NCBI RefSeq assembly: GCF_003337435.1 | Contig: NZ_QPJS01000002.1 | Location: 62,001-126,000 of the forward strand | Direction: 5' to 3' | DNA length: 64,000 bases | Source of the DNA: Schleiferia thermophila | GTDB taxonomy: Bacteria > Bacteroidota > Bacteroidia > Flavobacteriales > Schleiferiaceae | Shown here: piece by piece, positions 13,209-64,000 of the stretch | Position numbering within the stretch: the first letter of the stretch is position 1 | Layout: the number at the start of each line of letters is the position of its first letter | Notes under the pieces: model-generated | Databases searched by the model: none | Told to the model about the DNA's origin: nothing | The model's input: the letters and a program-made list of their open reading frames with translations, nothing else | Translations under genes and position numbers: made by a program

Positions 13209-14633
13209 ATGGAGCGTTACATTCTTACAACCCAGCAAAAAGCCCTGAAAATCAACCTAAACCAATCCATCTATGGCACATTTGCTGAAATCGGCGCCGG
13301 TCAGGAAGTCGTCCGTCACTTTTTCCGGGCTGGAGGAGCCTCCGGCACCGTGGCCAAAGCAATGAGCGCCTACGACAAAGATTTCAGCGATGCAATTTAT
13401 GGTCGGGAACCCGACGGCCGCTACGTTACCGAAAGTCGCCTTCGCAAAATGCTCGCCCAGGAATACAGGCTCGTCGAAGAGCGCATCGACCGCTCCAAAA
13501 ACCCCAACAAATGCTTCTTTACCTACGCCAATACCGTGGCCACCATCGATTTCGCCAAACGCTACAAAGGACATGGCTGGATGGGATGTAAATTTCAGCT
13601 TACCCCAGACAGCCCGCCAAACGAAGTCATCTTCCACGTCCGGCTAAAAGAAAACGAAGCCGTCCTCCAGCAGGAAACCATCGGCGTCATGGGCGTAAAT
13701 CTCATATACGCCTGCTTCCACATCATCAACGATCCTAACGAACTGCTCAAATCCCTCTACGACAACCTTTCCCGCGAAAAAGTCGAAATCGATATGATCA
13801 ATGTCTCCGGACCCGATTTCGAAGGCGTCGACAACCGCCTCCTTTCCCTCCAGCTCATCAAAAACGGATTTACAGACGCCGTCATCTTCGGCCCCGACGG
13901 CAATAACCTCCTCCCCGCAGGCCTGCTCTACAAAAAAAACATCCTCGCTCTGCGCGGCAGCTTCCGCCCCGTCACCAAGGTCAACATGGACATGATGACC
14001 AAAGGCTACCAATACTTTATCAGAGATCCGCGCGTCAAAAAAGACAACGTCGAAGTCCTCTTCGAAATCACCCTCAATAACCTCCGTGCCGAGGGCGAAA
14101 TCGACGAACAAGACTTTCTGGACCGCGCTGAAATTCTTTGCTCGCTCGGTTACAAAGTACTCATCTCCAATTTTCAGGAATATTACAAACTCGTGCACTA
14201 CTTCGCCGAGTTTACCAAAGCGCGATTGGGCATTATCCTTGGAGTTTCCAGCCTGAAGGACATCTTCAATGAAAAATACTACAGAACCCTCCCAGGAGGC
14301 ATCCTAGAGGCCATGGGCATCATGTTTTCCCGCGACATAAAAATTTATGTTTATCCCTCAAAACCTACAGACGAAAGTCCCCTCGAAACCTCCAAAAACA
14401 TGTGGGTACATCCACGCCTGCGCCCCCTATTCGATTATCTGACCTTCAACGGGCGGATCAAAGACATCGAAACCTACGACCCCTCCATTCTTCATATTTT
14501 CTCACCCCGCGTGTTAAGGATGATTAAAAAAGGCGAATCCGGATGGGAACATATGCTGCCTGAAGGTGTTGAAAACATCATTAAGTCAAAGAAACTCTTT
14601 GGCTATGAGCCTCATAAAGAAGTTGCCACATAA
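13209..14633 (+). CDS. Conserved protein of unknown function
   Basis: A 474-residue soluble protein beginning MERYILTTQQKALKIN. Striking conserved-looking stretches are YGTFAEIGAGQEVVRHFFRAGG, GASGTVAKAMSAYDKDFSDAIYG, GHGWMGCKFQL, GVMGVNLIYACF and ISGxD-type turns. I recall this as a widely distributed bacterial family of about 480 residues, given unreliable names in databases (for example 'TonB-dependent receptor', which it cannot be: it has no signal peptide and no barrel). No catalytic motif that I can name is present. A TTG start seven codons upstream is possible but lies inside the promoter element. Confidence 0.75.
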   Translation: MERYILTTQQKALKINLNQSIYGTFAEIGAGQEVVRHFFRAGGASGTVAKAMSAYDKDFSDAIYGREPDGRYVTESRLRKMLAQEYRLVEERIDRSKNPNKCFFTYANTVATIDFAKRYKGHGWMGCKFQLTPDSPPNEVIFHVRLKENEAVLQQETIGVMGVNLIYACFHIINDPNELLKSLYDNLSREKVEIDMINVSGPDFEGVDNRLLSLQLIKNGFTDAVIFGPDGNNLLPAGLLYKKNILALRGSFRPVTKVNMDMMTKGYQYFIRDPRVKKDNVEVLFEITLNNLRAEGEIDEQDFLDRAEILCSLGYKVLISNFQEYYKLVHYFAEFTKARLGIILGVSSLKDIFNEKYYRTLPGGILEAMGIMFSRDIKIYVYPSKPTDESPLETSKNMWVHPRLRPLFDYLTFNGRIKDIETYDPSILHIFSPRVLRMIKKGESGWEHMLPEGVENIIKSKKLFGYEPHKEVAT

Positions 14634-14657
14634 ACTTCACCCTTGCACCAGATACTG

Positions 14658-14688
14658 TTTGGAAAATTTTTAGCCCTTTATATATTTG
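14658..14688 (+). promoter_or_regulatory. tRNA-Gln promoter (TTTG-N19-TATATTTG)
   Basis: The -33 TTTG (14,658-14,661) and -7 TATATTTG (14,681-14,688) are separated by exactly 19 bases, a perfect Bacteroidota housekeeping promoter. The -7 box ends 17 bases before the mature tRNA. This is the clearest promoter in the window. Confidence 0.85.
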
Positions 14689-14705
14689 CAGCCCGTTTCA
14701 CGGAT

Positions 14706-14776
14706 TGCCCGATCGTCTAATGGCAGGACTACGGATTTTGGTTCCGTCTGTGTTGGTTCGAATCCAGCTCGGGCAA
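14706..14776 (+). tRNA. tRNA-Gln (anticodon TTG)
   Basis: A 71-base cloverleaf. The acceptor stem TGCCCGA/TCGGGCA has seven perfect pairs. The anticodon stem ACGGA/TCCGT encloses loop TTTTGGT (anticodon TTG), the T-arm has the loop core GGTTCGAATCC, and the discriminator is A. CCA is not encoded. It is a stand-alone unit with its own promoter and a terminator hairpin. Confidence 0.97.
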
Positions 14777-14786
14777 CTTTAGAATG

Positions 14787-14811
14787 ACCCACCTCCAGCG
14801 GTGGGTTTTTT
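14787..14811 (+). terminator. Intrinsic terminator after tRNA-Gln
   Basis: A 7-base-pair stem ACCCACC/GGTGGGT with a 6-base loop is followed immediately by a run of T. It starts 10 bases after the tRNA and is well placed to end its transcript. Confidence 0.85.
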
Positions 14812-14824
14812 ATTTTCTCCTTTT

Positions 14825-14999
14825 GGGCGCCTCCCCCGGCCGCTTTCTGCCCGCGGCCGGGGGCCGGTCTACGACTCCTATTCCCCTTGCGGATCGGGCA
14901 TGACTCATCGGGCTGCGGTGGCTCGCTCTCGCTCCGCCTCCTCGCCCGTGTGCCATACTGCCCGCCCGCTGCGGCTCATATCCGCCTCCGCCCAGGCGC
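14825..14999 (+). repeat. GC-rich dispersed repeat, copy 1
   Basis: A very GC-rich 175-base block inside much more AT-rich DNA. The same sequence occurs inverted at 63,236-63,409 with roughly 85-87% identity by eye. It begins GGGCGCCTCCCCCGG and ends GGCGC, so the ends can pair (GCGCC/GGCGC). An 11-base-pair perfect hairpin, CCCCCGGCCGC (14,833-14,843) with GCGGCCGGGGG (14,853-14,863), encloses 9 bases. Open frames across it look like composition artefacts. The 148 bases after it, up to the next gene, show nothing recognisable. Confidence 0.85.
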
Positions 15000-15147
15000 T
15001 CAAAGCAACTCCAGGCCCTCCACCACTATTCCCCCTGATTACCCAACTGCTCATCCCTTATTCATCCATACTCATGCACCTATCCGGCATTATAGGCCAT
15101 CCCGGCTTCCACATCCCATCCTCACCAACCTAAATCGAGTATAAACA

Positions 15148-15624
15148 TTAATCCCTGTTTAGATAATAAGGCAGCCTGCCATCAAAATCCCTGAACCTCA
15201 GCATAACAATACTATCCGTATGCTGAGCCAAAACATTCAGGTCAAATTCTCCAAAACCTTCCAACAGTCGTTCACAGTCCCCCACATCCGACACATACAT
15301 TGCCAGCAAAGCCTGGGGAGGATAACTTTTCAGTAAAAGACCATTCCACACCAGCTTTGCTTTACCTTCCTGACAACCACTGTATTGATATGTGATTCGC
15401 AAACAATTTCCGTCCTGATACACTTCTTTTGGAATGGCTACCTGAGCTCCTGCTGAATCTTCCATCGTCTGAAATGCAGCGACGACTACGGGCTCGCAAG
15501 CAGGTTTGCTTGCCGATTCCGGGATATCTTCTTTCACAGCCATCGGTGCATCAATGTTTTTCTTGGTCTTACAAGCTGCGTAAGCCAAAAGCACACCACT
15601 AATCAGCCACCACCACTTTTTCAT
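15148..15624 (-). CDS. Hypothetical lipoprotein-like secreted protein
   Basis: A 158-residue protein starting MKKWWWLISGVLLAYAACK, a short signal ending in a loosely lipobox-like AYAAC. The rest contains several cysteines and no family I recognise (middle: NCLRITYQYSGCQEGKAKLVW; end: LRFRDFDGRLPYYLN). A start nine codons upstream is possible but less convincing as a signal peptide. It overlaps the end of the upstream protease gene by 26 bases, so it is likely translated from the same message and may be a partner of that exported protease. Confidence 0.65.
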   Translation of the reverse strand: MKKWWWLISGVLLAYAACKTKKNIDAPMAVKEDIPESASKPACEPVVVAAFQTMEDSAGAQVAIPKEVYQDGNCLRITYQYSGCQEGKAKLVWNGLLLKSYPPQALLAMYVSDVGDCERLLEGFGEFDLNVLAQHTDSIVMLRFRDFDGRLPYYLNRD

Positions 15625-41462: not shown

Positions 41463-41886
41463 TTTTTAGTGTTTCACGTGAAACATTGAAAAACTTTTTT
41501 AAAATAAGATTTTCGAAAGAAGTCATTTTTTCTTTTTCTTCAAATGTGTGATCGTTGAAACCAGCAGCGTGCAATAAACCATGAATGTACAATCTGTAGA
41601 GTTCTGTTTTAAAATTTTCTCCTTCCTTAAGATCGCTTTTTAAATATTCAGAAGAAAAATAAATCTCAACATCTTTAAATTTTTTAATAGTATAAGAAAA
41701 TGTAATAACATCTGTGGGATAATTGTGTAGCAATGAAGAAGAATTAAGTTCAGTAATTTTATCAATGCTTAAATCATATAATGAAATTTTTCTAAACTTT
41801 ACATTAAACAGATTACTACATATTTCAGTAATTTCATTTAAATCTCCAACTTTGAGATATTTACAATTAGAATTAATAGAAAACAT
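41452..41886 (-). CDS. ybeY: Endoribonuclease YbeY (16S rRNA maturation)
   Basis: A 144-residue metalloprotein with the zinc site H102-GLL-H106-AAGFND-H113, close to the usual H-G-x-L-H-x-x-G motif but with one extra residue before the third ligand. It takes part in 16S rRNA 3'-end processing and ribosome quality control, functionally linked to PhoH-type proteins. Its last codons (VSRETL, about residues 135-140) are read from a perfect parS palindrome. It overlaps mnmG by 11 bases and the DUF4175-like gene by 14, forming a coupled three-gene run. Confidence 0.93.
41470..41485. promoter_or_regulatory. parS centromere site (ParB binding)
   Basis: TGTTTCACGTGAAACA, a perfect 16-base palindrome identical to the consensus parS site bound by ParB in most bacteria. 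It lies within the 3' end of ybeY, 7 bases upstream of the mnmG start codon. No other full match was noticed in the window, and parA/parB are not in it. Such sites cluster near the chromosomal origin. Confidence 0.9.
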
Positions 41887-44227
41887 TTTTCTTCTTACGC
41901 AATGTTTGTTTTTTTATTATTAAAAGATTTTCTGGTTTATCGTAGGTAAGTTTAAATGGTTCTGTTTCAATGGTATTTACATAATTTCCTTTTCGCTTAT
42001 TATCAAAATCAGGGTTGATTCTTTCCGTTCTGGAATAATCAAGCCATTTGATTTTCCGTTTAAAAACAGAATCCTGATTATCATAATTTCCAATTTTATT
42101 TATAAGTTGTTTTTCTATTTCCTCCAAAGATAAACTGTTTCCATTATGACCTTTATTATTGTTTTCATTTTTTATATCATTAGTATTTCCATCATCTTTT
42201 GAATTAGATGTATTACCTTTTCCATTCTTGTTCTCCCCATTTTCTTGTTCACTATCATTATTCCCCGAATTACCATCACTTAAAATATCGGATAAAAGCT
42301 CACTTAATCCAGGTTTTTTAGAGTTTCCATTACTATCCGAACAATTCGAATTTTGTTTGTTTTCTCCTGACATTGAATTCAAAACTTCTCTATTTTTTAA
42401 TACATTGTAAATTTTTACTGTTAAATTATTAATTCGATACCGTACTTCTAAAATATCTGAATTTTTGTTTTCTGCAAGATTCTTAATACTCAGAATATCT
42501 AAGGATAGAATTTCACCTATTTTTCTGTTTTTATTTGATAAAACATTAAGGGAGTCAATGACCGATAACAAAGATGAAACCCGAATTAATTGACTGGTAT
42601 TTCTATAGATGTTTTTATCAATATTTAGACTTATTAGATTTAAATTCACCAGATAATTTTCTAAATTGATAACATCTTCCGCCGTTAAAACATCACCATC
42701 ACTTTCATTAGGAGTGTTGATGCTGTTCCTTTTATTCATAAATTTATTCAAGTTGTTATTCAATTTTTTCTCTTCATTATTTATATTTTTAGTATCTAAT
42801 TGTTTATTAGAAATCTCTTTAAAAATTTCATTCAATTCTTTAAGATCTTGTTTTATATCATTTTTTATTTTTAAATCGTTCGAATTGTTAAAAATTTTCA
42901 TTTGTTTTAGTAAATACTCTTTAATATCCAAATACACTTTCTTTTCTATTAATGTACTATTGTAAAATAAGTCTAAGGTTTTTATCAAATTATTTAGATC
43001 TTCAAAAATGTCATCATGCATTGAATTATTATTAATATCATTACCATCAAAAGAATCAGAAGTTTCGTATGAATAATCAACTGAAGTTTTATTATTTAAT
43101 ACAATAAAGGTTTTTTGATTTAAAATATTTTCTGCCATTACTCTGAAAATACCACTGTTACTACTATTGAGTATCATGCTAAATCCTAATCCACTTAAGT
43201 TTCTTTTTTCTTCATTCACTTCCAATCTTTTTAAACCATATAAATCAGAGATATAAATCTTATATCCTTGATCATATTCTTCATAATTAATGCTTGGAGC
43301 TATAGGTTGACTTCCTTTAAAATAATATTGAACACTATCAGTTATTTTATCATTACTAAATACAATATTAATAACCGTATCTTTTTTTAATGAAAAATTT
43401 ATTTGTTTTCCTTTTTCTGTAGCATTATCTAAATTTAAATAAATACTTATCTTAGAATCAATGAAAGCATCAATAATAAATTCATTTTTAAATTTTTTAT
43501 TATAATTTTCACCAAAACGAACATCGACAATTGAATTTATAATTTTTGGCTTTTTAACAACATCAAAATAAATTTTTTTATTATAGTTCCCTAAATTTAA
43601 AGTAATGTAATTATTTTGGCCATTTACAAATCCTAGATAAATAGTATTAGTATTTAACAGACTGAAATTTCCTTGATACCCAATACTGATATCTTCAGAG
43701 ATTTTATCCGTCATAACAATTAAACTATCACCTTCTAGGTAAAGACTTTTATTGGTAACTATATTGAATTTTTTTAAATATGTATCATAAACAGAAGTTT
43801 TTAAAGGATTAATAACTTGATTATTTAATATTGATACAACAGTAATAAACAATAATGTAAAAAAAACAAAAATTATAACATCTTTTAATTTAATAAATGA
43901 TTTTTTTAATCTGCTTTGTAGCTCAATATTTTTAAAAACAGAATTTTTATTTTCCAGATCTTTTATAAACCTCCAATTTAAGAAGCTTTCTTTTTCAAGC
44001 AAAATTTTATTTACTAAAAAATTGAATTTGAAAATCCTCGTAAACAGAATATACACAATAACTGCACTTAATACAAAATAAAATAAAAATGATACAACTT
44101 TAAAAGAGGTTTCAGTAAATTTAAATGAATTATTAAAAATAATTAAGTAATATAATAAGGTATTTATACTGAAATACAATAAAACAAATATGATCAGGGG
44201 CAACACAACTATTGCCGTATTCAACAT
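41873..44227 (-). CDS. Large DUF4175-like membrane protein
   Basis: A 784-residue protein. The chosen ATG (MLNTAIVVLPLIIFVLL) begins directly with a hydrophobic helix; two more membrane segments follow at about residues 55-75 and 115-140. A long extracytoplasmic region of beta and helical segments leads to an Asn/Ser/Gly-rich low-complexity stretch (about residues 640-720) and a conserved-looking end (TIETEPFKLTYDKPENLLI). Position beside ybeY and mnmG and overall design match the Bacteroidota DUF4175 family, whose function is unknown. A longer frame starting at 44,368 would overlap gltX and is unlikely. Local GC is very low. Confidence 0.7.
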   Translation of the reverse strand: MLNTAIVVLPLIIFVLLYFSINTLLYYLIIFNNSFKFTETSFKVVSFLFYFVLSAVIVYILFTRIFKFNFLVNKILLEKESFLNWRFIKDLENKNSVFKNIELQSRLKKSFIKLKDVIIFVFFTLLFITVVSILNNQVINPLKTSVYDTYLKKFNIVTNKSLYLEGDSLIVMTDKISEDISIGYQGNFSLLNTNTIYLGFVNGQNNYITLNLGNYNKKIYFDVVKKPKIINSIVDVRFGENYNKKFKNEFIIDAFIDSKISIYLNLDNATEKGKQINFSLKKDTVINIVFSNDKITDSVQYYFKGSQPIAPSINYEEYDQGYKIYISDLYGLKRLEVNEEKRNLSGLGFSMILNSSNSGIFRVMAENILNQKTFIVLNNKTSVDYSYETSDSFDGNDINNNSMHDDIFEDLNNLIKTLDLFYNSTLIEKKVYLDIKEYLLKQMKIFNNSNDLKIKNDIKQDLKELNEIFKEISNKQLDTKNINNEEKKLNNNLNKFMNKRNSINTPNESDGDVLTAEDVINLENYLVNLNLISLNIDKNIYRNTSQLIRVSSLLSVIDSLNVLSNKNRKIGEILSLDILSIKNLAENKNSDILEVRYRINNLTVKIYNVLKNREVLNSMSGENKQNSNCSDSNGNSKKPGLSELLSDILSDGNSGNNDSEQENGENKNGKGNTSNSKDDGNTNDIKNENNNKGHNGNSLSLEEIEKQLINKIGNYDNQDSVFKRKIKWLDYSRTERINPDFDNKRKGNYVNTIETEPFKLTYDKPENLLIIKKQTLRKKKNVFY

Positions 44228-44259
44228 CTTCCACTTTTCCGTATGTCTAATCACAATTA

Positions 44260-44267
44260 TACATTTG
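44260..44267 (+). promoter_or_regulatory. Promoter -7 element (TACATTTG) for gltX
   Basis: An exact TAnnTTTG match 13 bases before the gltX ATG, with only a TTTT about 21 bases upstream in place of the -33 TTTG. It implies a leader of under 10 bases. Confidence 0.5.
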
Positions 44268-44280
44268 TGCAAAATTACGA

Positions 44281-45780
44281 ATGATACGAGTAAGATTCGC
44301 ACCAAGCCCGACGGGACCTCTTCATATGGGTGGTCTTCGTACCGCACTCTACAATTATCTGTTAGCAAAGCAATGCGGAGGTAAATTTATTCTTAGGATA
44401 GAAGATACTGACCAAAGTAGAACAGTAGAATATGCAGAAAATTATATTATTGAAAGTCTTAAATGGTTAAAAATTATACCCGATGAAGGCTTTGAAGCAT
44501 CGGAACGGGACCAGTACAAACAATCGAAAAGAAGAGAAATCTATAAAGAATATGCATATCAATTAATTGAGAAGGGATTTGCTTATTATGCATTTGACAC
44601 TCCAGAAGAATTAAACGAAATCCGGCAAAGGGTACAGCAACCGGGTAAAAATTGGCAATATGACTCTATATCCAGACAATATATGAAAAATAGTCTCACT
44701 TTACCAGAAGATGAGACTAAACGATTAATTGAGCAAGGCACACCATATGTAATTCGTATAAAGACTGAAAGAAATCAGGAAGTTAAAATTAACGATTTAA
44801 TCAGAGGACCGGTAATCTTCAATACAAATGTTCTCGACGACAAAATTTTGCTAAAAAGCGATGGTATGCCTACCTATCATCTTGCCAATGTGGTCGATGA
44901 TCACCTAATGAACATTAGTCATGTGATTCGTGGTGAAGAATGGCTTCCATCTACTCCTATTCATGTACTTTTATACGAATACCTAGGAATTAAACACAAA
45001 ATGCCTGAATTTGCCCATCTCCCACTATTACTTAGACCTGATGGCAATGGAAAATTAAGTAAGCGAGACGGTGAAAAATATGGATTTCCAGTTTTTCCGC
45101 TTTCAATCCCCTCAGATAATGGAACTATCGTACCGGGTTATAGGGAACTAGGATTTTTACCAGAAGCCTTTATAAATGTTCTAGCCTTATTAGGTTGGAA
45201 TCCGGGTACGGAAAAGGAAATCTACACAATGGAGGAACTTATAAATGATTTTTCAATTGAAAAAGTTTCTAAATCAGGTGCTAAATTTAATTATCAAAAA
45301 TGTTTATGGATCAATCATGAACACCTCAAAAAATCAGAAACAAATTATATTAAAGAATATATAATTTCAACATACAAGGATATATCTTTCGACGATATTA
45401 TCTTAACAAAAGTAATTGAAACAGATAAAAAAAGAGTGAATTTATTGACTGAAATTTTGGATGACTACCGACGAGCTATAGATTTTAATTATGTAAAAAA
45501 TAATATATCAAAAAATAGTTCAGAAATTAACGTTAAAATTCTTTCGAATTTTTATGAATTTATCCATACAAAAATTAACGATATAAATGGAGAATTAGAT
45601 ATAGAAAAAGTAATCAAACTATACATAAAAGATAACAAAATTAAATTTCAGGAAATTGGAATTCCCTTAAGAATTGCAACTTTTGGAATTAAAACAGGGC
45701 CTTCAATTTCAGAAATATATTATATCTTAGGAAAAACAGAATTTTTTAACAGAGTTAAAACAATTACAGATGACTTTTGA
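44281..45780 (+). CDS. gltX: Glutamyl-tRNA synthetase
   Basis: A 499-residue class I synthetase. The HIGH-type motif is APSPTGPLHMGG (H15), LRIEDTDQSR follows, and the KMSKS-type loop is K258-LSKR, with the usual RGEEWLPSTPIHVLLY between. It charges tRNA-Glu, and possibly tRNA-Gln if the organism uses the indirect amidation route. It has its own -7 promoter element and overlaps folB by 11 bases. The C-terminal third is unusually AT-rich and Lys/Ile/Asn-rich, in keeping with the local base composition. Confidence 0.96.
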   Translation: MIRVRFAPSPTGPLHMGGLRTALYNYLLAKQCGGKFILRIEDTDQSRTVEYAENYIIESLKWLKIIPDEGFEASERDQYKQSKRREIYKEYAYQLIEKGFAYYAFDTPEELNEIRQRVQQPGKNWQYDSISRQYMKNSLTLPEDETKRLIEQGTPYVIRIKTERNQEVKINDLIRGPVIFNTNVLDDKILLKSDGMPTYHLANVVDDHLMNISHVIRGEEWLPSTPIHVLLYEYLGIKHKMPEFAHLPLLLRPDGNGKLSKRDGEKYGFPVFPLSIPSDNGTIVPGYRELGFLPEAFINVLALLGWNPGTEKEIYTMEELINDFSIEKVSKSGAKFNYQKCLWINHEHLKKSETNYIKEYIISTYKDISFDDIILTKVIETDKKRVNLLTEILDDYRRAIDFNYVKNNISKNSSEINVKILSNFYEFIHTKINDINGELDIEKVIKLYIKDNKIKFQEIGIPLRIATFGIKTGPSISEIYYILGKTEFFNRVKTITDDF

Positions 45781-51075: not shown

Positions 51076-52194
51076 TCAGCTCTCTTCAAAAAGTTTGGCT
51101 CTTAGAATTTCTACTCCTTCTACAACAGCATTATTAATAGTTTGCTCATCATCTATAGTGTTGAAAATAATGTCTTTATATGTTCTTTTGATTAGATTTA
51201 TTTCTTTTAGGACAAACGTTTTATCATCTTTTTTAATAAATATATAATTTTTATTGTCAATGAATATCAAGGTTTCCTTAGGAAGTATAAATGCTTTTAG
51301 AAAACCTCCTTTTATCAAAACCTGTACTTGCTGGCCTACAATAAATGCGTAATTGGTATCGGTTAAATGGCAATGGACATGGACCAATTTTGATGTTTCA
51401 TCAATAAACGGACTGATATTAATCACTTTAGCGTATGTTACTAAATTGCCGTTGGCGTCCTTTACTATTAGAGTATCGTTGAGGTCTATTTTTTTTGAGA
51501 TATCAAGATTTACAAACAATTCAACGTGAACATGATGTATATCCAGTATACTGAACATAAGTGTATTTGGTTGTACAAGACCTCCTGAATTTACAAAGAT
51601 ACTTTTAATATAACCATCTACCGGTGATTTAATTGCTACCTGACTATAGGTTTTACCATCTTTTACATTTTTTGGAATTAAGTTTATGTCTATCAATAGT
51701 TTTTCTATTGATTTAAGTTGTGCTCTTGTACTGTAAAAGGTGCTTTTAGCTACTTCCAATGTACGTGCAGAAGTTGCAGAATCATTAAATAATTTTAATT
51801 GTCTTACATATTCCAAAGAATCCGTTTGATATTGTGTATAGACACGTAAAAAATCCTGTTGAATGGTCATAATATCAGGATGTGAAAGATAACATATCAC
51901 GTCGCCCTTTTTAACAAATGAACCTTGGTAAACAGATAATTCTTTTACAAATCCGGGTATAAGGGAATAGACAGAATGAATACTTTGGGGGGGTGCAGAT
52001 ATCAGACCAATAAATTCTAGTGTATCAAAATAGTTCTGTTTTTCTAAACTTGTAACAGTAATTTTGGATAGAAACAACGAATCTGTTTCTTCAATTTTTA
52101 TGACATTGTCATCTCCATCAAGTCTTTCTTTTTGCAATTGATTATTACACGATAGAAATGTAATGAAAAGCAATAAAAAATAACTAATTTTCAT
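51076..52194 (-). CDS. RND efflux periplasmic adaptor (CusB/CzcB-like)
   Basis: A 372-residue membrane-fusion protein. The lipoprotein signal MKISYFLLLFITFLSC anchors it in the inner membrane. It then has a barrel-sandwich/lipoyl half (VHSVYSLIPGFVKELSVYQGSFVKKGDVICYLSH), a helical hairpin (residues about 110-160), the second lipoyl half (VAIKSPVDGYIKSIFVNSGGLVQPNTLMFSILD) and beta-barrel domains. It bridges the pump below and the outer membrane channel. It overlaps the pump gene by 11 bases. The pump type points to divalent or monovalent heavy metals. Confidence 0.9.
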   Translation of the reverse strand: MKISYFLLLFITFLSCNNQLQKERLDGDDNVIKIEETDSLFLSKITVTSLEKQNYFDTLEFIGLISAPPQSIHSVYSLIPGFVKELSVYQGSFVKKGDVICYLSHPDIMTIQQDFLRVYTQYQTDSLEYVRQLKLFNDSATSARTLEVAKSTFYSTRAQLKSIEKLLIDINLIPKNVKDGKTYSQVAIKSPVDGYIKSIFVNSGGLVQPNTLMFSILDIHHVHVELFVNLDISKKIDLNDTLIVKDANGNLVTYAKVINISPFIDETSKLVHVHCHLTDTNYAFIVGQQVQVLIKGGFLKAFILPKETLIFIDNKNYIFIKKDDKTFVLKEINLIKRTYKDIIFNTIDDEQTINNAVVEGVEILRAKLFEES

Positions 52195-55100
52195 CGCACA
52201 AAAAATTTATTTCATTTATTAAAAGATAATATTGTAATAATACCTGTAGATAAGTAACTTCAGTATTTATCATCTGTGAAATAGCTTGCACATATTCGAA
52301 AGAACTAATAGAGCCATTTATAAACTCGGATAATGCTGTTTGTTTTAATTTTATTGAGTAATTTAATTGATTTTTTGAGTAATCTTCAATTTCTTTTGAT
52401 AGTCTTTCAAAAGAATCAATCAAAAATTTCAAATCATTACTTAATTCTATTTTTCTTTGAATAGCATTATTTTTCTCTATAAGATACATAAGTTTTGATT
52501 GTTTAATTCTTGCTATAGCAGAATGTGCAACCAAGGGAATTTGTATTCCAATGTATACTCCTCGAAATCCTCTTTCTTTTTCGAGACTTTGATTGAAGTA
52601 TCCTATTTGTATATCAGGGAAAAATATTTGTTCCATTATCTTCATATCTCTATATGCTAACATTTCTTTTAATTCTATTTCTTTTGTAAATAAGTCGGAT
52701 AAAAGTAACGCTTCGAACTCATGTTGATGATTGAAAATAGTATCTTTTGGTATAACTTCTATATCCGCCGGTAGTGATAAAATCTTTCTAAGATCACTTT
52801 GATATCTAGATACGTTGTTTTTAGCTGTTTGATATCGAATAGAAATTTCTTTTAATTGGTTTTCGATGAGCAATATATTTATTGGTTTTAAGGCTTGATT
52901 ACTTTTTAATGAATTTATTTGTTGCTTGAGGTTTATGGCATTTTCGTATTCCAGTTTATATATATTCATAATCCAATTAGCAAACAATAGATTTGTCCAT
53001 GTATTTATAATGTCTCTTCGCAATATTTTCCTGGCAAGTAATTGATTATTTTTTGTATACTCATACTCCACTATCGCCCTCTTGTAATTAGCAATTTGTC
53101 TTGTAATGGAGTTTAAATTTTGAAATGTTTCAAAATTATAATCGTTGTTGATAAAATTTATTTGTCCGTATGTATAGGATATAGTTGTTGGGCCTGGATC
53201 AATCGCAGTGAGTTTTGCTAATCTTGAAATTTCAGTTTGAATAAGAGAATTCTTGATACTTAGGTTATTTGTCATACCAATTTCTATTGCCTCATGGAGT
53301 GATATTTCCAATTGTTCTGGTTGCGCATTTAGAGAAAAATTGCCAGACAATATGGATAAAATTACAGTGAATAAAAATGACTTATGCTTTATAAATTTTC
53401 TGATTGTTTTTAGTACCAGAAAAGTATTTGGTAGGACAAAAAGGGTTAGTATTGTTGCAGTGATTAAACCACCAAAAACCACTGAGGCCAGAGGTCGCTG
53501 GACTTCAGCTCCTGCAGAGGTGCTAAGAGCCATTGGTAAAAAGCCGAATGCAGCCACCATACCTGTAAGAAGTACGGGTCTGACTCTTTGCATGCACGCC
53601 TTAAGAACAACTTTATATATATTCTCCCCGGGATTATTCCTTAATTCTCTTTGAATAACAGACATTAAAACAACACCATTTAAAACTGCTATTCCAAACA
53701 ATGCAATAAAGCCAATGGATGCCGAAATACTAAATGGCATATTTCGAAGTAACAGCGCAAAAACCCCACCTATAGTGGCCAATGGAACTACCGAAAAAAT
53801 CAAAAAGGCTATAGAAATATCGTTGAAAGCAATATATAATAAAAATAAAATGATGAGAATTACAATGGGAAGAATGAGTTCTAATTTGTTGACGGCTCTT
53901 TGCAAATTTTCAAATTGACCACCATAATCAATGAGTACTCCTGGGGGTAGTTCTACATTGTTTTTTACATAATTCTCTATTTCGTTTACTACAGATTTTA
54001 CATCTCTCCCTCTTATATTAATGCCTATTTCTACTTTTCTCATTCCCCTTTCTCTCGAAATTTGTCTTGTTCCGTTTTGGTCTCTGATTTTTACAAAATG
54101 GTAAAAGGGTAAATTTCCATATGCAGTTTTGATGGGAATGAAATGAACCGATGCATTATTCGTTGTATCTGCTGACCTAATTACAATTGAAAATCTCTTT
54201 TCATTTTCATAAAATTGTCCTACTTCTATACCAGCTCTGAATGATTGTAAGGCAGTATTGATATCTGATACACGTACACCTGATATGGCCGCAAAAGGTC
54301 TATTGATTTCATAAATGCGATAAGGGAGTCCTGTATTAATTTCAATGCGTACATCAGCCGCTCCTTTTACGTTTTTAGCGAATGAAAACACTTGTTTTGA
54401 TATTGAATTAAGCACATCTCTGTCTTCTCCTAAAATTTTTATAGAAATATCCGATTTATTTCCAGAAAGCAATTCATTGAACCGCAATTGAATTGGCTGT
54501 GAAAATTCCATTTGAATGTGAGGGAAACTTTCGGATAAGAGAGATTTCATAGCGCTTACAAGTTCATTTTTATCCCGGTGTTTCCATGAAGATTTTGAAT
54601 GTAATATTATCATGATATCTGCCTCTTCAATGGCCATTGGGTCTGTTGGTACTTCAGAAGAGCCAATTTTTGAAATAACATGCTTGACTTCCTGAAAATT
54701 GTTGAGCAATACACTTTCTATTTTAGTGGTTGTAGCTATCATTGATTCCAATGACGAGCCTGGTTCAATCAATACCTGTAAGGCTAAATTTCCTTCTTCC
54801 AGATTGGGAACAAATTCAGCTCCACGGTTCACCAGAATGAAAATTGATGCTACAAATGATAAGAAAGCAATAAAAATGATTATTTTTCCTCTACTAAAAG
54901 ACTTCTCAAGCAAGAGGGAGTATAGGGATTCAATTTTTTTCTGAAAAATGTTTGAAAATTTCAAATGTTTATCATCGGGATGCAAAAACAAGGTACATAC
55001 AACGGGCACATAAGTCATTGAGAGAATTAAAGAACCGATTAAAGCAAACGACAATGTTAAGATCATTGGCTGAAACATCTTTCCTTCTACTCCTTCAAAA

Positions 55101-56494
55101 CTTAATACAGGTAACAGTACCAGTAGAATAATTAGGATTCCAAAAAATGCTTTGCTGTAAATGGATGATGATATGGTTGCAATTTCTTGTTTTTTGATAT
55201 TGAAGTTTGCCATGGAAAGGGAGCTGTTTCTAATGTTGAAATGGTGCATAACACCTTCAACTATTATTACTGCACCATCGACCAGGATTCCAAAATCAAT
55301 GGCACCAAGCGACATTAGATTTGCTGATACGCCAAATACATTCATCATTCCGAAGGCAAAGAGCATGGACAGGGGAATGACACTGGCTGTGATTAAAGCA
55401 GCTTTGTAGCTGCCAAGAAAAAGCAGTAATATCAGAACTACAATTAAAGCTCCTTCAGTTAAGTTTTTAATCACAGTTGTAATGGTTCTTTGGATGAGAT
55501 GCGACCGGTCCAGAAAAGGATAAATTGTGATGCCTGGTGGGAGTGTAGATTCTATTTTTTTTATTCGTTCGTGAATGTTTTTCAGTACTTTGGAAGAACT
55601 TTCATCTTTAAGCATTAAGACAATACCCCCAACGACTTCCCCCTTCCCGTCCATTGTACATGCACCGTATCGGAGTGCATGTCCCGGACGAACATCTGCA
55701 ACATGCTTTATTTGTATTGGTATATTGTTTTTCAGCGCTACTGGTACATCTTTGATTTGTTGTTCGTTTTTTAGCAACCCATCCGTTTTTACATACACTG
55801 CATTACTGCCGAAAGACAGATAACCACTTCCTACATTGGCATTGTTAGCCAAAATTGCCGTGCGGATATCATCGATGGTAATTTCATGTTGGGATAGTTT
55901 TTCCGGATGATAGGCAATTTCATATTGTTTTACAAAGCCACCCAGCGATGAAATGTCAATGACTCCGGGTATTCCGGCTAATTGTTTTTTGACAATCCAG
56001 TCCTGAATAGTTCTCAGGTCATAAAGGGAATATGCATTTTCGTATTTAGGGTCAATAACCAGCACATATTGAAAGATTTCGCCCAGGCCAGTTGTGATCG
56101 GCATCAATTCGGGCTTGCCGTACTCCAATGGGATTTCATCGCTGAGGATGTTGAGTTGTTCTGCAATGAGTTGCCTGCATGTGTAGATGTCTCTGTTTTC
56201 CTCAAAGACCACTGTGATGACACTCAGTCCATATCTGGTGATACTTCTTAATTCATTGACTCCCGGTAAGTTGGCAAGCTTACGCTCAATCGGTGCTGTG
56301 ATGAAATACTCTACTTCATCGGCTGATAATGCTGGCGAAAAGGTCACTATCTGAGCCTGATTGTTTGTGATGTCGGGGACTGCGTCAAGAGGAATCCTAA
56401 ATAAAGACCAGATGCCCCAGCCTGTAAGCAGAACTATTCCAAGAAATACGTACAATGGATTGTTAACGCTATAAGAAATAATTTTTCTGACCAT
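52184..56494 (-). CDS. CusA/CzcA-type heavy-metal RND pump fused to TolC-like channel
   Basis: A 1436-residue fusion. Residues about 1-1040 are an HME-family RND transporter: opening segment ISYSVNNPLYVFLGIVLLTGWGI, the FRIPLDAVPDITNNQ periplasmic motif and the proton-relay helix with DFGILVDGAVIIVEG (about residues 400-415). Residues about 1060-1436 are a TolC-like outer membrane factor (LHEAIEIGMTNNLSIKNS; ending with paired coiled-coil helices). The junction contains a second signal-peptide-like stretch (SFLFTVILSILSGNFSLNAQ, about residues 1033-1052). With the adaptor downstream, it forms a full tripartite metal exporter in two genes. Confidence 0.93.
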   Translation of the reverse strand: MVRKIISYSVNNPLYVFLGIVLLTGWGIWSLFRIPLDAVPDITNNQAQIVTFSPALSADEVEYFITAPIERKLANLPGVNELRSITRYGLSVITVVFEENRDIYTCRQLIAEQLNILSDEIPLEYGKPELMPITTGLGEIFQYVLVIDPKYENAYSLYDLRTIQDWIVKKQLAGIPGVIDISSLGGFVKQYEIAYHPEKLSQHEITIDDIRTAILANNANVGSGYLSFGSNAVYVKTDGLLKNEQQIKDVPVALKNNIPIQIKHVADVRPGHALRYGACTMDGKGEVVGGIVLMLKDESSSKVLKNIHERIKKIESTLPPGITIYPFLDRSHLIQRTITTVIKNLTEGALIVVLILLLFLGSYKAALITASVIPLSMLFAFGMMNVFGVSANLMSLGAIDFGILVDGAVIIVEGVMHHFNIRNSSLSMANFNIKKQEIATISSSIYSKAFFGILIILLVLLPVLSFEGVEGKMFQPMILTLSFALIGSLILSMTYVPVVCTLFLHPDDKHLKFSNIFQKKIESLYSLLLEKSFSRGKIIIFIAFLSFVASIFILVNRGAEFVPNLEEGNLALQVLIEPGSSLESMIATTTKIESVLLNNFQEVKHVISKIGSSEVPTDPMAIEEADIMIILHSKSSWKHRDKNELVSAMKSLLSESFPHIQMEFSQPIQLRFNELLSGNKSDISIKILGEDRDVLNSISKQVFSFAKNVKGAADVRIEINTGLPYRIYEINRPFAAISGVRVSDINTALQSFRAGIEVGQFYENEKRFSIVIRSADTTNNASVHFIPIKTAYGNLPFYHFVKIRDQNGTRQISRERGMRKVEIGINIRGRDVKSVVNEIENYVKNNVELPPGVLIDYGGQFENLQRAVNKLELILPIVILIILFLLYIAFNDISIAFLIFSVVPLATIGGVFALLLRNMPFSISASIGFIALFGIAVLNGVVLMSVIQRELRNNPGENIYKVVLKACMQRVRPVLLTGMVAAFGFLPMALSTSAGAEVQRPLASVVFGGLITATILTLFVLPNTFLVLKTIRKFIKHKSFLFTVILSILSGNFSLNAQPEQLEISLHEAIEIGMTNNLSIKNSLIQTEISRLAKLTAIDPGPTTISYTYGQINFINNDYNFETFQNLNSITRQIANYKRAIVEYEYTKNNQLLARKILRRDIINTWTNLLFANWIMNIYKLEYENAINLKQQINSLKSNQALKPINILLIENQLKEISIRYQTAKNNVSRYQSDLRKILSLPADIEVIPKDTIFNHQHEFEALLLSDLFTKEIELKEMLAYRDMKIMEQIFFPDIQIGYFNQSLEKERGFRGVYIGIQIPLVAHSAIARIKQSKLMYLIEKNNAIQRKIELSNDLKFLIDSFERLSKEIEDYSKNQLNYSIKLKQTALSEFINGSISSFEYVQAISQMINTEVTYLQVLLQYYLLINEINFLCDEN

Positions 56495-60658: not shown

Positions 60659-63138
60659 ACATTTAACAAGGTTTCTTTTTTCTCGTATTTTGGCCAGATA
60701 AAGTGGAAAGAAGACCCTTTGCCAACTTCTGATTCTACCCAGATACGGCCCCCTTTGTCTTCTACAATTTTTTTAACGATGGCCAGCCCCACACCTGTAC
60801 TTTCAACCTCATCACGGGCCTTGAGGGTCTGAAACATAAGGAAGATTTTTTCATGAAAATCGGGATGTATGCCTTCGCCGTTGTCAGTGATGACAAATTC
60901 TAATTCCTTTCCGTGGTCAATCCACTGAATCCGGATTTTCGGGGTTTCCTTGTCGTTGTATTTTACTCCATTGGAAATGAGGTGAGCCATAACTTTTTCG
61001 AGGGCTGCTTTTTCTGAAAACAGGGAAATTTCATCTTCTTGAATGGTGATTTCAACATGAGGTGGAAAATTCATTCTTGCGACGAGGTCTTTGGTCATGG
61101 TGTTGGCTGAGAAGCTCTCTACCCGGGAGCGTATGCGACCGACTCTGGAGTATTCGAGAATGCCGTTGATGAGGTCTTCGAGTCGACGAACCCGACCTCT
61201 GAGTAGTCTGAATTGTTCTCTGGTTTCGCCTTCGAGTTTATCGCCGATATCTTCTTCAATCCATTCGCTCAGATTGTTGATGGCTCTGAGGGGTGCTTTC
61301 AGGTCATGGCTTACGATGTAGGCGAAGCGATTGAGTTCATTGTTGATTTTTTCGAGGGTGCTGTTGTATTTGAGAATTTTTTCATCGGTCCATTTTCGGT
61401 GAAGACTTACGGCTATCAGGTCGCCAAAGACTCTTAGCAGGCGGATGTCTTCTTCACTCCAGGTGCGCTTGAATCGAACTGCATCGAAGCCGGCAAAACC
61501 TATGAGACGCTCATTGACTACAAGTGGGACTACTACCAGGGATTGAATGCCTTGTGGCTCGAGGATTTCTCTTACGCTTTGCCAGTCATCGGGGAGGTTT
61601 TTTACATCGGGAATGTGGATGATTTCCAGGTTTTGCAGTTTTTCATTCCACTGTGGAATGAGGTCGGCGGGTATCATCTGGAGGTTATCTTTTTCAGGGG
61701 AGATGCCCTCGGCACACCATTCATGGGTGTTGCTCATTACTTTACCGGGTTCGTCGTACTGGAATACATAGACGCGGTCGGCTTCACAGAAGCGGCCTAC
61801 CCGTTCCAGGGCCAGGTTAATTTTTTCGTCCAGCTCTCCCTGAATGGAATTGATGAAGCTGGCAGAGAGCTCGACGAGCAACATTTCAAAGTCTGCCCGG
61901 TATTTAAGGTCTTTTATGAGTTCTTTAATTTGTGAGATGTCTCGACTGATGCCTACTAGTCCATATATCAGGCCGTTTTCATCTTTGAGGGGGACTTTAG
62001 ACCTCTGTAGCCAGAAGGCTCTTCCTTTGTTGTTGATGAGAAAATGTTCCTGATCGATGATGGGTGTGCCCTCGTTCAGTACCTGGTGGTCGTCTTCGTT
62101 GAAGATGGAGGCATGTTCTGATGGATAAATTTCGTCGTTTGTTTTGCCAATCATGGCATCGATGCTGTCGAGTCCGGCAAATTCGGCATCTTTGGCATTG
62201 GAGATAATTCTCCGGCCATTGCTGTCTTTTACAAATATTGCGTCGGGGATCAGGCTGATGACGGTTTTCAGCAGTTTGCTTTCGCGTTCCAATTCGTGCT
62301 GAAGGTTGTAGATGGGGGTTACGTCGTAGGCTTCTACTAAGGCGGCTTTGGTATGGGAGTCTTCGTAAAGGATTGGGGTGATGGTCAGGTCAAAGTGGTA
62401 TATTTTGTCATCATACCCTGATTGTATGTGGAGGTGTTGTTTTTTTTGTGTGTTGAGGGCTTTTTGCAGGGTGCTTAAGAGAAGCTTTTTGTCTTCTTTG
62501 GGGTTGATGAAGTTGATTTGGTCGATGGATGCTTTTTGAATCAGATGGGCGGAGTCGCCGGCCAAGGTTTTGAACTTATTGTTGCAATTGAGTATTTGTC
62601 CGTTTTCATCGACAAGGGCGGTTATGGCGGTGGATGAGTCGAAGAGGGACTTGAAGCGTTTTTTTTCGTTTTCGAGTTCTTCGAAAAGTTCGCAGTTGCG
62701 ACAGGCAAGGGCTAGTTTTTGAAGGGGGATGGAGAGGGATTTGACAAAGTTGTCGGAGTGGCTAAGGGTGTCGGCAGAGAGCAACAGAAAACCGTAGTCG
62801 TTGAGTTCCCAGATGGTGGTTTGTGGGTTGATTTGTCCGGGTTTGGTGGGAAGATGGTGTTTGAACGTATGGGTTGGGTTTTTAATCAGGTTGGTGGTCC
62901 ATTGGATGGCTTGGGCGATATGTGGCTGGTCGTCGTAGGGTTTTACGGAGTAGAATACTTTGATTTGATTTTCGGGTAGATGGTGCTTTAGGACGAGTGC
63001 ATTGTTGAGTCTGAGTATTTTTACCAGGGGGGCGAGGCTTTGGGAGAGCATATCGTGCAGGTGATTGGAGTTTCCGATGCTGTTGGAAAATTCAAATGCT
63101 GAATGCAGGTCCCATAGGAAATCGATATCTGCTGACAT
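60655..63138 (-). CDS. PAS/GAF sensor histidine kinase, cytoplasmic
   Basis: An 827-residue kinase without membrane helices. After an N-terminal helical or GAF-like region come two PAS domains (about residues 170-280 and 285-405; markers LFDSSTAITALVDENGQILN and LIPDAIFVKDSNGRRI ... GLVGISRDI). A GAF domain follows (about 430-580), then HisKA with the phosphoacceptor in YIVSHDLKAPLRAI, and HATPase_c with HLISNGVKYND, DNGEGI and GVGLAIVKKI. No receiver domain or response regulator gene is adjacent. The start is ATG 63,138; a TTG eight codons upstream is possible. The GC-rich repeat lies just upstream. Confidence 0.92.
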   Translation of the reverse strand: MSADIDFLWDLHSAFEFSNSIGNSNHLHDMLSQSLAPLVKILRLNNALVLKHHLPENQIKVFYSVKPYDDQPHIAQAIQWTTNLIKNPTHTFKHHLPTKPGQINPQTTIWELNDYGFLLLSADTLSHSDNFVKSLSIPLQKLALACRNCELFEELENEKKRFKSLFDSSTAITALVDENGQILNCNNKFKTLAGDSAHLIQKASIDQINFINPKEDKKLLLSTLQKALNTQKKQHLHIQSGYDDKIYHFDLTITPILYEDSHTKAALVEAYDVTPIYNLQHELERESKLLKTVISLIPDAIFVKDSNGRRIISNAKDAEFAGLDSIDAMIGKTNDEIYPSEHASIFNEDDHQVLNEGTPIIDQEHFLINNKGRAFWLQRSKVPLKDENGLIYGLVGISRDISQIKELIKDLKYRADFEMLLVELSASFINSIQGELDEKINLALERVGRFCEADRVYVFQYDEPGKVMSNTHEWCAEGISPEKDNLQMIPADLIPQWNEKLQNLEIIHIPDVKNLPDDWQSVREILEPQGIQSLVVVPLVVNERLIGFAGFDAVRFKRTWSEEDIRLLRVFGDLIAVSLHRKWTDEKILKYNSTLEKINNELNRFAYIVSHDLKAPLRAINNLSEWIEEDIGDKLEGETREQFRLLRGRVRRLEDLINGILEYSRVGRIRSRVESFSANTMTKDLVARMNFPPHVEITIQEDEISLFSEKAALEKVMAHLISNGVKYNDKETPKIRIQWIDHGKELEFVITDNGEGIHPDFHEKIFLMFQTLKARDEVESTGVGLAIVKKIVEDKGGRIWVESEVGKGSSFHFIWPKYEKKETLLNV

Positions 63139-63235
63139 AAGGAGGAGCTTTTCTACGTGCAAATATTGAAACTAATTTTCATTGGTGTGTTTAGGAGGTA
63201 AATTTTGTTGTGGGATGTATGTACAGTGGGGTAAT

Positions 63236-63409
63236 GCGCCAGGGCGGAGGCGGATATGAGCCGCAGCAGGCGGGCTTAGTGGCACACGGGCGAGGAGGCG
63301 GAGCGGTAGCAAGCCACCGCAGCCCAATGTGCCAGGCCTGCCTGCAAGGGGAATAGGAGCCGCAGACCGGCCCCCGGCCGCCGGTCGGAAGCGGCCGGGG
63401 GAGGCGCCC
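63236..63409 (-). repeat. GC-rich dispersed repeat, copy 2 (inverted)
   Basis: 174 bases matching copy 1 at 14,825 in reverse orientation, about 85-87% identical by eye. The 11-base-pair hairpin stem (63,371-63,381 with 63,391-63,401) is identical in both copies, while 4 of the 9 loop bases differ. The copy begins 48 bases after the stop of the DUF4286 gene, read in that gene's direction. Open frames through it (63,172-63,854) are artefacts of composition. Confidence 0.85.
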
Positions 63410-63457
63410 AAGGTTCTAAAGGAAGTATTTTGTTTTTGGAGTGTTGAGTGAGTGGGT

Positions 63458-63775
63458 TCAGAATTCGTCGATGATTTCGAGGATGGTGCGGAAGGCGACG
63501 AATTTGTCGGCGTATCGTTGGGTATGTTCGTTTTGGAGGTCCGGGGCGAAGAGGTTTTGATACAGGGTAAGGGATTCGCGGTCTTTGGCGATGTACTGGA
63601 TGGCGTAGGTAGTGCCTTGGGGGTCGTCGGCCAGGACTTTGGATATTTTGCATTCGTCGAACATGCCGGTGGCCAGTACATCGGGGATGTGTCTGGTGCG
63701 CATCCAGTGGAGCCAGTCGTCGTGGACGGTGTCGTCGATGTTGATGGTGACGTTGTAGATGTATCGTTTTTTCAT
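63458..63775 (-). CDS. DUF4286 family protein
   Basis: A 105-residue protein of the DUF4286 family, a ferredoxin-like or dimeric alpha-beta barrel-like fold common in Bacteroidota. Typical segments are YIYNVTINIDDTVHDDWLHWMRTRHIPDVLATGMF and TYAIQYIAKDRESLTLYQ. Function is unknown. Its ATG overlaps the stop of the TPR gene upstream (ATGA), so they are co-translated. The plus strand here is markedly G-rich. Confidence 0.9.
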   Translation of the reverse strand: MKKRYIYNVTINIDDTVHDDWLHWMRTRHIPDVLATGMFDECKISKVLADDPQGTTYAIQYIAKDRESLTLYQNLFAPDLQNEHTQRYADKFVAFRTILEIIDEF

Positions 63776-64000
63776 GATGGGTTTTGACTAAGGAGTGTGC
63801 GCAGGCGCATGCGGGCCTGATGGTGGAGGAAGCTATCGGTAAATTCGAGGACAATGAGTTCGAGTAGTTCTATGGCCCGGCGTGGGTTGTTGAGTTTTTC
63901 CTGGTGCAGGACTGCTGCTTTGTAGATGGCCTGGTCGGCCAGGAGGTCGTAGCCGAAGATGGTGTAGACGCGTTCGTACCATTCTACGGCCTGCTGGTAG
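63772..64000 (-). CDS. TPR-repeat protein, C-terminal end (runs off window)
   Basis: The last 75 residues of a protein whose start lies beyond the window. The sequence reads YQQAVEWYERVYTIFGYDLL, then ADQAIYKAAVLHQEKLNNPRRAIELLELI and ends in TLLSQNPS, with the spacing of tetratricopeptide-like helix pairs. The stop codon overlaps the DUF4286 start by 4 bases. The function of the whole protein cannot be judged. Confidence 0.75.
   Translation of the reverse strand, partial: YQQAVEWYERVYTIFGYDLLADQAIYKAAVLHQEKLNNPRRAIELLELIVLEFTDSFLHHQARMRLRTLLSQNPS

Follow-up and report, generated by a model that had tools for sequence, protein, structure and literature searches.

The window, a stretch of 64,000 nt of the Schleiferia thermophila genome, carries a GC-rich sequence twice, in inverted orientation and at near-equal length. 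What is this sequence, and how did its copies come to lie where they do? A sequence-only reading of the window had left the choice between a MITE- or REP-like element and a repeated RNA.

Copies, ends and gene context of the repeat

The inverted pair is real. Indeed, blastn within the window aligns the two copies with 154 of 176 positions identical (88%, 3 gaps, E 4e-54). The copies and the genes that precede them are:

14706..14777, plus strand: tRNA-Gln (TTG) preceding copy 1, ending 47 nt before the element
14825..14999, plus strand: element copy 1 in GGGCGCC-first orientation; the strand apparently selected for folding is the minus strand
63236..63409, minus strand: element copy 2 (blastn to copy 1), with its GGGCGCC end at 63409
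63458..63775, minus strand: DUF4286 gene preceding copy 2, ending 48 nt before the element

A whole-genome search of the genome carrying the window (G000; 2.6 Mb in 23 contigs) located the element in 26 places, 25 of them full-length copies and one a 75-nt partial copy (L026). The sequence-only reading had expected a multi-copy repeat and had named a want of further copies as the finding that would speak against it; its expectation is borne out. The full-length copies are 82-100% identical to copy 1 and 77-99% identical to one another (mean 87%). The element is 175 nt long, with indels between copies, and its GC content of 74% does stand out, as had been remarked, against the 24-50% found in the 2-kb steps of the window. 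Its ends are sharp, GGGCGC... on one side and ...GCGC on the other, and the flanks are otherwise unrelated. One 5′ flank is common to L019, L021 and L026; since L021 and L026 also adjoin N runs, L026 being cut by an N gap, these three may reflect a local duplication or an assembly effect. Two ORFs of at least 80 aa overlap copy 1 and neither has a Pfam match, which, together with the indels between copies, led us to reject coding sequence. The repeat is thus non-coding, and the gene context described below agrees with a location outside conserved coding sequence, the other outcome that had been named as damaging.

Gene context was taken from a simple ORF caller (at least 80 aa) and not from annotation. 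With the copies turned GGGCGCC-first, the left ORF has the same orientation as the element in 23/25 copies, and in 19/25 a same-strand ORF ends 9-65 nt before it. L018 and L021 are without a near left ORF in this context. The near left genes of L001 and L016 were identified apart from the ORF caller, and once these two, tRNA-Gln (copy 1) and DUF4286 (copy 2), are added, a gene end lies close upstream of 21 of the 25 copies. That the two window copies are inverted relative to each other means nothing in particular, the orientation of a copy going with that of the gene beside it. The right-hand ORFs point toward the element in 15 cases and away from it in 10.

T makes up 64% of the 12 nt on the 5′ side of the element, but only 30-40% of the sequence that follows 21 control genes in the window; it stands at -1 in 21/25 copies and at -2 in 21/25. 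By eye, a hairpin and a T-run lie between tRNA-Gln and copy 1. For the element itself we rejected an ordinary terminator, as its T-run stands before the hairpin and not after it. A target-site duplication of at least 4 nt borders none of the 25 copies (null from mismatched pairs 3.3%). In the 3′ flank, 19 of the 25 copies have A at +1, 15 have T at +2 and 20 have C at +7, perhaps a target or end signal.

A common three-way fold and the strand that adopts it

Structure was studied in two alignments of the 25 full-length copies, the partial L026 being left out: A1, with the copies GGGCGCC-first, and A2, with the same copies on the other strand. The copies share a three-way fold made of a closing helix P1, a long rod and a GC hairpin P2. 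On copy 1 its parts are:

14994..14999, minus strand: 5′ strand of the closing helix P1, reading GCGCCT on the strand that folds, from the minimum-free-energy fold; P1 covaries in other genomes
14866..14992, minus strand: long rod of short helices with 3x3 purine-rich internal loops between them, then a GC-rich stem (consensus and copy-1 fold)
14853..14863, minus strand: hairpin P2, 5′ strand (consensus and copy-1 fold)
14844..14852, minus strand: P2 loop, near-random among copies (column identities)
14833..14843, minus strand: hairpin P2, 3′ strand (consensus and copy-1 fold)
14827..14832, minus strand: closing helix P1, 3′ strand (AGGCGC), from the same fold, with covariation in other genomes

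The A2 strand reads GCGCC...GGCGCCC, P1 pairing GCGCC with GGCGC, and P2 has the form CCCCCGGCCGC-loop-GCGGCCGGGGG on either strand. In the RNAalifold consensus, 3x3 purine-rich loops separate the helices of the rod, each 2-3 bp long (GGC[GGA]UAU[GAG]CC...), and the GC-rich stem comes after them. RNAalifold on A2 closes the structure with an overlapping GGGCG/CGCCC pairing in place of P1; the minimum-free-energy fold of the copy 1 minus strand forms P1 as GCGCC/GGCGC, and in copy L025 the closing helix reads GCGCA/TGCGC. The folding energy of the copy 1 minus strand has a z of -4.05 as RNA and of -3.19 as DNA.

This fold covaries. Across the 25 copies, 13 of the 51 consensus pairs show changes on both sides (for example CG 18/UA 7 and GC 14/AU 9), against 4.6 +/- 1.2 in shuffles, none of 500 being as high. 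Double-changed cells number 43 against 11.0 +/- 2.8 in shuffles, and 98.7% of cells pair, against 39-43% when the alignment is slid. The measure of further pair types is unexceptional (26 against 23.6 +/- 1.5; 45 of 500 shuffles as high). The sequence-only reading was right in taking the repeat for a structured one with no transposase inside. The covariation reflects selection on each copy or on parent copies, and a host-useful RNA would look alike.

On the A2 strand, which is also that of Flavo-1 (see below), wobble comprises 17 G-U cells in 11 pairs and a single A-C cell in one pair, as counted with a structure fitted on the A2 strand itself. The structure fitted in A1 leans the same way, more weakly: a hand count in the A1 sense, omitting the invariant pair 2-155 (G-U 25/25) and the loop-closing pair 20-29 (UG 10, AC 2), gives 11 A-C cells and 7 G-U cells. 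Given that both structure fits share this wobble lean, folding seems to belong to one strand, which is antisense to the gene upstream of the element.

The P2 loop departs from the rest of the element, with a mean pairwise identity of 0.40 where paired columns reach 0.92 and the remaining unpaired ones 0.87. We rejected plain age as the cause: L006 and L012 are 98% identical outside the loop and 20% within it, and no correlation was found (Mantel p 0.81). This test is weakened by gene conversion of the rod, which could also produce such a pattern, since orthologous sites in G159 and G173, two genomes considered below, carry different variants. We also rejected the idea that the loop is a guide, either a copy or a complement of the sequence beside it, own flanks matching no better than those of other copies (mean longest match 4.8 and 4.8 at 40 nt; means alike too at 100, 300 and 1400 nt).

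Kinship with Flavo-1 and the behaviour of its relatives

Only tRNAs reach an Rfam gathering score in the window, so that a known family at that level was rejected. The blastn search of relatives that had been recommended covered 88 family genomes, the own one included. Two more genomes gave matches, G060 with at least 9 copies and G061 with 4; the best match has E 1.3e-19 and spans query positions 36-161. These relatives have different outer parts, GGGCGTGCCC...GGGTCGGGCTATCCGCT...TATCCCTCACGC. The pattern GGGTCGGGCTNTCCGC occurs 58 times in 29/196 genomes of the order, 11 times in G060, and its backward control once. We scanned 16 loci, 14 from the pattern search plus L027 and L032, with the Rfam model of Flavo-1 (RF01705; gathering cut-off 42 bits). 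In eight of them Flavo-1 scores above the cut-off, and the pattern lies on its opposite strand; L121 (40.2 bits), L136 (34.6) and L133 (26.9, E 0.08) fall below it, and L027, L029, L030, L032 and L135 have no match. In G000, RF01705 has no match at E<=1e-3 and its gathering score is not reached; window positions 14600-15200 contain no Flavo-1 at E<=5.

The RF01705 model is without P1 and P2. We compared long Flavo-1-type elements of other Flavobacteriales, 16 of 21 of which form alignment A3 (L127, L133, L135, L144 and L145 were omitted for mis-set ends or a long P2). In A3 the closing helix covaries (pair 4-177 TA 8/AT 8; pair 3-178 GC 13/AT 2/GT 1), as does rod pair 12-137 (GC 6/TA 5/AT 5), some rows being orthologous copies of one site, so that these events are not independent. 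Wobble on the same strand, over 14 model pairs, amounts to three G-T cells and no A-C cell. A covariance model, R1, was built from A3, leaving out pair 145-175 (CG 9, CT 4, CA 3). R1 detects all 12 loci given from G060, G061 and G023 at E<=1.1e-4; they represent 11 distinct elements, L039 and L135 being one, and L031, L035 and L036 were omitted from the set. It also detects at E<=1e-3 each of 20 ordinary Flavo-1 copies sampled from the 81 of G242, 18 of which align to R1 positions 9-88 only, without P1 and P2. R1, a covariance model built from relatives, recognises Flavo-1 but finds 0/25 G000 copies.

Among 12 unrelated loci, R1 has no match at E<=1e-3. One of them, L040 of Thermaurantimonas aggregans, gives E 0.16 and has by eye the ends of the family; a second copy, of the G060/G000 kind, lies near it. 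The nearest named relative of one kinase gene of G000 is also from T. aggregans (72%).

The homology of the G000 repeat with Flavo-1 is found in steps, blastn joining G000 to G061 and G060, and R1 joining G060 and G061 to the Flavo-1 of G242. As R1 detects none of the G000 copies, the link is indirect. Sequence comparison thus makes the window element kin to Flavo-1 by way of intermediates; by Rfam's own test it is not a member. The two have in common the strand, the rod in which 3x3 purine internal loops alternate with short helices, and, through the G060, G061 and Thermaurantimonas intermediates, the blocks GCG..AGGGAT..AGCGG / AGCGGA.AGCCCGACCC. The G000 element differs in its added P1 and P2, its GC content, its length and its ends (GGGCGCC/GGCGC). 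R1 matches 11/41 family genomes (up to 30 copies each) and RF01705 3/88, which makes R1 the better model for marking such repeats in the family.

Flavo-1 is itself a dispersed repeat. RF01705 matches 31 of 40 genomes at E<=1e-3, 28 above the cut-off, and none of 14 controls, the 40 having been chosen to include known pattern carriers. Seven of them have more than 80 matches each, among them G089 (at least 89; 89 of 89 scored candidates), G138 and G205 (at least 88 each) and G159 (at least 84); G220 has 70 among its scored candidates. The orientation rule of G000 is looser in other genomes: left and right neighbours of 30 pattern loci are (+,+) in 15, (-,-) in 6, (-,+) in 5 and otherwise in 4, the left ORF having the orientation of the element in 19/30, and 20 Flavo-1 copies of G242 give (+,+) 13, (-,+) 4 and others 3. 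Element ends in these loci were set by rough patterns, and distances are approximate.

The presence of relatives was judged by eye at two orthologous sites, in 30 of the 54 genomes that match at one and 30 of the 61 that match at the other. At the aroC|gltP site in the genus of G242, a recognisable element is present in 4/30 loci (L251, from the query genome, L255, L264 and L265), and in 7/30 gltP starts no more than 20 nt from the aroC stop (L252-L254, L256, L257, L259 and L276). AroC of the nearest short locus is 95% identical to that of the element-bearing query. The remaining loci have other spacers or no gltP there (6/30 without gltP downstream; L271 ambiguous). Clean empty sites exist at aroC|gltP, and the T-run beside the G242 copy is missing from the short ones. 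At the second site, in another genus, 9/30 loci carry the element and one a partial copy, the others having other sequence; the P2 sequences of orthologous relatives look alike across species there, by eye. Since presence varies at both sites, relatives come and go at orthologous positions. For the copies of G000 no empty site was found, the family genomes searched having given no second species of the genus. We rejected as a clean empty site the Thermaurantimonas site upstream of a histidine kinase, where there is no element but the upstream gene differs.

In G159 and G173, orthologous sites carry different variants by eye (L289/L298 and L294/L296), which suggests gene conversion or replacement. 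Among L285-L304 of these two genomes, several Flavo-1 copies are preceded by a GACAAATCCC-like sequence and many are followed by a CTCCTAAAAA-like one (by eye); these flanks are perhaps parts of the element beyond the Rfam model. In genus g24, the spacer 5′ of a 275-aa gene (L208, L213 and L221) contains by eye an AT-rich palindromic repeat (ccacaaaag...cttttgtgg) where the Flavo-1-type element is absent.

A table of Weinberg et al. 2010 (PMC2864571) lists Flavo-1, and Rfam classes it as an sRNA. The passages on it in a transcriptome study give no clue to its role and no consistent strand (PMC9723704). Another paper names it where the most abundant small RNAs are treated (PMC9029176), so that its abundance is already in print; PMC3765529 and PMC7682815 also carry the accession RF01705. 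As far as the accessible portions of the literature on Flavo-1, RF01705 and repeats of Flavobacteria go, we found no paper treating Flavo-1 as a dispersed or mobile repeat. The long, GC-rich, overlooked variant related to it is new.

Origin of the copies

On balance, we hold that the 175-bp repeat is probably a GC-rich, long-form and lineage-amplified relative of Flavo-1. Most likely it is a non-autonomous inserting element, with selection acting on its fold as a single strand. Its copies would arise by polar insertion beside T-rich sequence, without target duplication and for the most part shortly after the ends of genes. One strand would fold into P1, rod and P2 in an intermediate or at a recognition step, this strand being antisense to the gene after which the element lies, and a protein supplied in trans would perform the insertion. 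Likeness within one genome would be kept by continuing spread, gene conversion or both, with the P2 loop unconstrained. We infer that the copies of G000 themselves insert, that the folded single strand is the form moved or recognised, and that the protein acts in trans; the presence and absence of relatives, by comparison, were observed directly at orthologous sites elsewhere. As orthologous sites carry different variants, likeness within a genome is also explicable by gene conversion without movement. Seen as a high-copy, inserting and structure-selected repeat, with two further helices and relatives missed by Rfam, Flavo-1 would raise the question of its sites, its strand and its enzyme.

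A broader reading, which we advance tentatively as possible rather than probable, would make Flavo-1 as a whole an order-wide family of mobile elements and not an RNA gene family. The folded single strand (P1, rod and P2) would be selected throughout, placement would be polar and close to the ends of genes, and the enzyme would be neither of Y1 type nor a reverse transcriptase; the G000 repeat would be its GC-rich lineage, its P2 loop perhaps renewed at copying.

The main rival is a useful role in cis: a structured RNA, or its antisense, would sit at gene ends to stabilise, terminate or insulate transcripts in the manner of bacterial BIME/REP sequences, and selection would keep it site by site. 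We consider it rather unlikely. According to the transcriptome study cited above (PMC9723704), in the part concerned with Flavo-1, hits fall sense and antisense to transcribed regions and many fall in none, which speaks against such a role. The near-fixed place after gene ends in G000, the compensatory changes in individual copies, the RNA folding energy and the similar P2 sequences of orthologous relatives would all suit it. The favoured folding strand is nevertheless antisense to the upstream gene. It could lie in the 3′ UTR of the right-hand gene in the 15 copies whose right-hand ORF faces the element, but in the other 10 this ORF runs away and, judging by ORF orientation, no neighbouring gene would read the folding strand. 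L001 and L020, moreover, follow a separate hairpin and T-run (by eye), and presence at orthologous sites is patchy.

Returning to an inserting element, known systems offer partial parallels. REP/BIME elements lie between genes in numerous folded copies, usually close to where a gene ends, and REP elements have a GTAG/CGTC head. The G000 element resembles them in its many folded intergenic copies near gene ends and differs in being much longer and in having no RAYT-type Y1 gene near its copies. IS200/IS605-derived MITEs (PATEs) combine a lack of target duplication, a strand-biased fold and polar placement beside T-rich sequence with two terminal hairpins. The G000 element shares the first three features, but its fold is three-way instead of two terminal hairpins, and Y1 was not found in some carriers.

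An element moved as ssDNA by a Y1 (HUH) transposase, of IS200/IS605 or REP/RAYT type, is in our view improbable. It would account for the strand bias of the single-strand fold, for the lack of target duplication and for the fixed T-rich side; T at -1 and -2 is suggestive only, as sequence, of a TnpA-like fixed left flank. Y1_Tnp (PF01797) is present in 9/12 genomes examined, but has no match in the carriers G060, G061 (a genome 70% complete) and G220. The single Y1_Tnp of G000 (C1:430618) lies 21 kb from the nearest copy, and the neighbourhoods examined in G000 hold no Y1 transposase close to any copy, where a REP/RAYT system would have one. The target-site duplication of a TIR-type MITE is likewise lacking. 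What stands of the original alternative is kinship with a family that Rfam files as RNA and whose behaviour is that of a dispersed, inserting repeat; a classic TIR MITE, with 0/25 duplications and no Y1 nearby, does not stand. A retro-type, SINE-like element, whose RNA strand would end with an A-rich tract and whose copying by a reverse transcriptase would be primed by T-rich DNA, would suit the T-rich side, the T-run of the G242 aroC|gltP copy that short empty sites lack and the G-U bias of the would-be RNA strand, but is very improbable, the reverse transcriptase it needs in the cell being absent, as judged by RVT_1 (PF00078; present in 7/16 genomes examined), from the carriers G000, G060, G061, G089 and G159.

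The window holds other features of note. In a 1436-aa protein (52184-56494, minus strand), an AcrB-type pump (PF00873, 5-1028) is joined with an outer-membrane efflux domain (PF02321) whose best stretch is 1280-1432; an HlyD-type gene adjoins (51076-52194). The lowest GC of the 2-kb steps (0.236) is found at 42001-44000, overlain by an 831-aa ORF (41873-44368, minus strand) with no Pfam match. Finally, the right end of the window (62001-64000) has a strong GC skew of 0.358 and an AT skew of -0.223.
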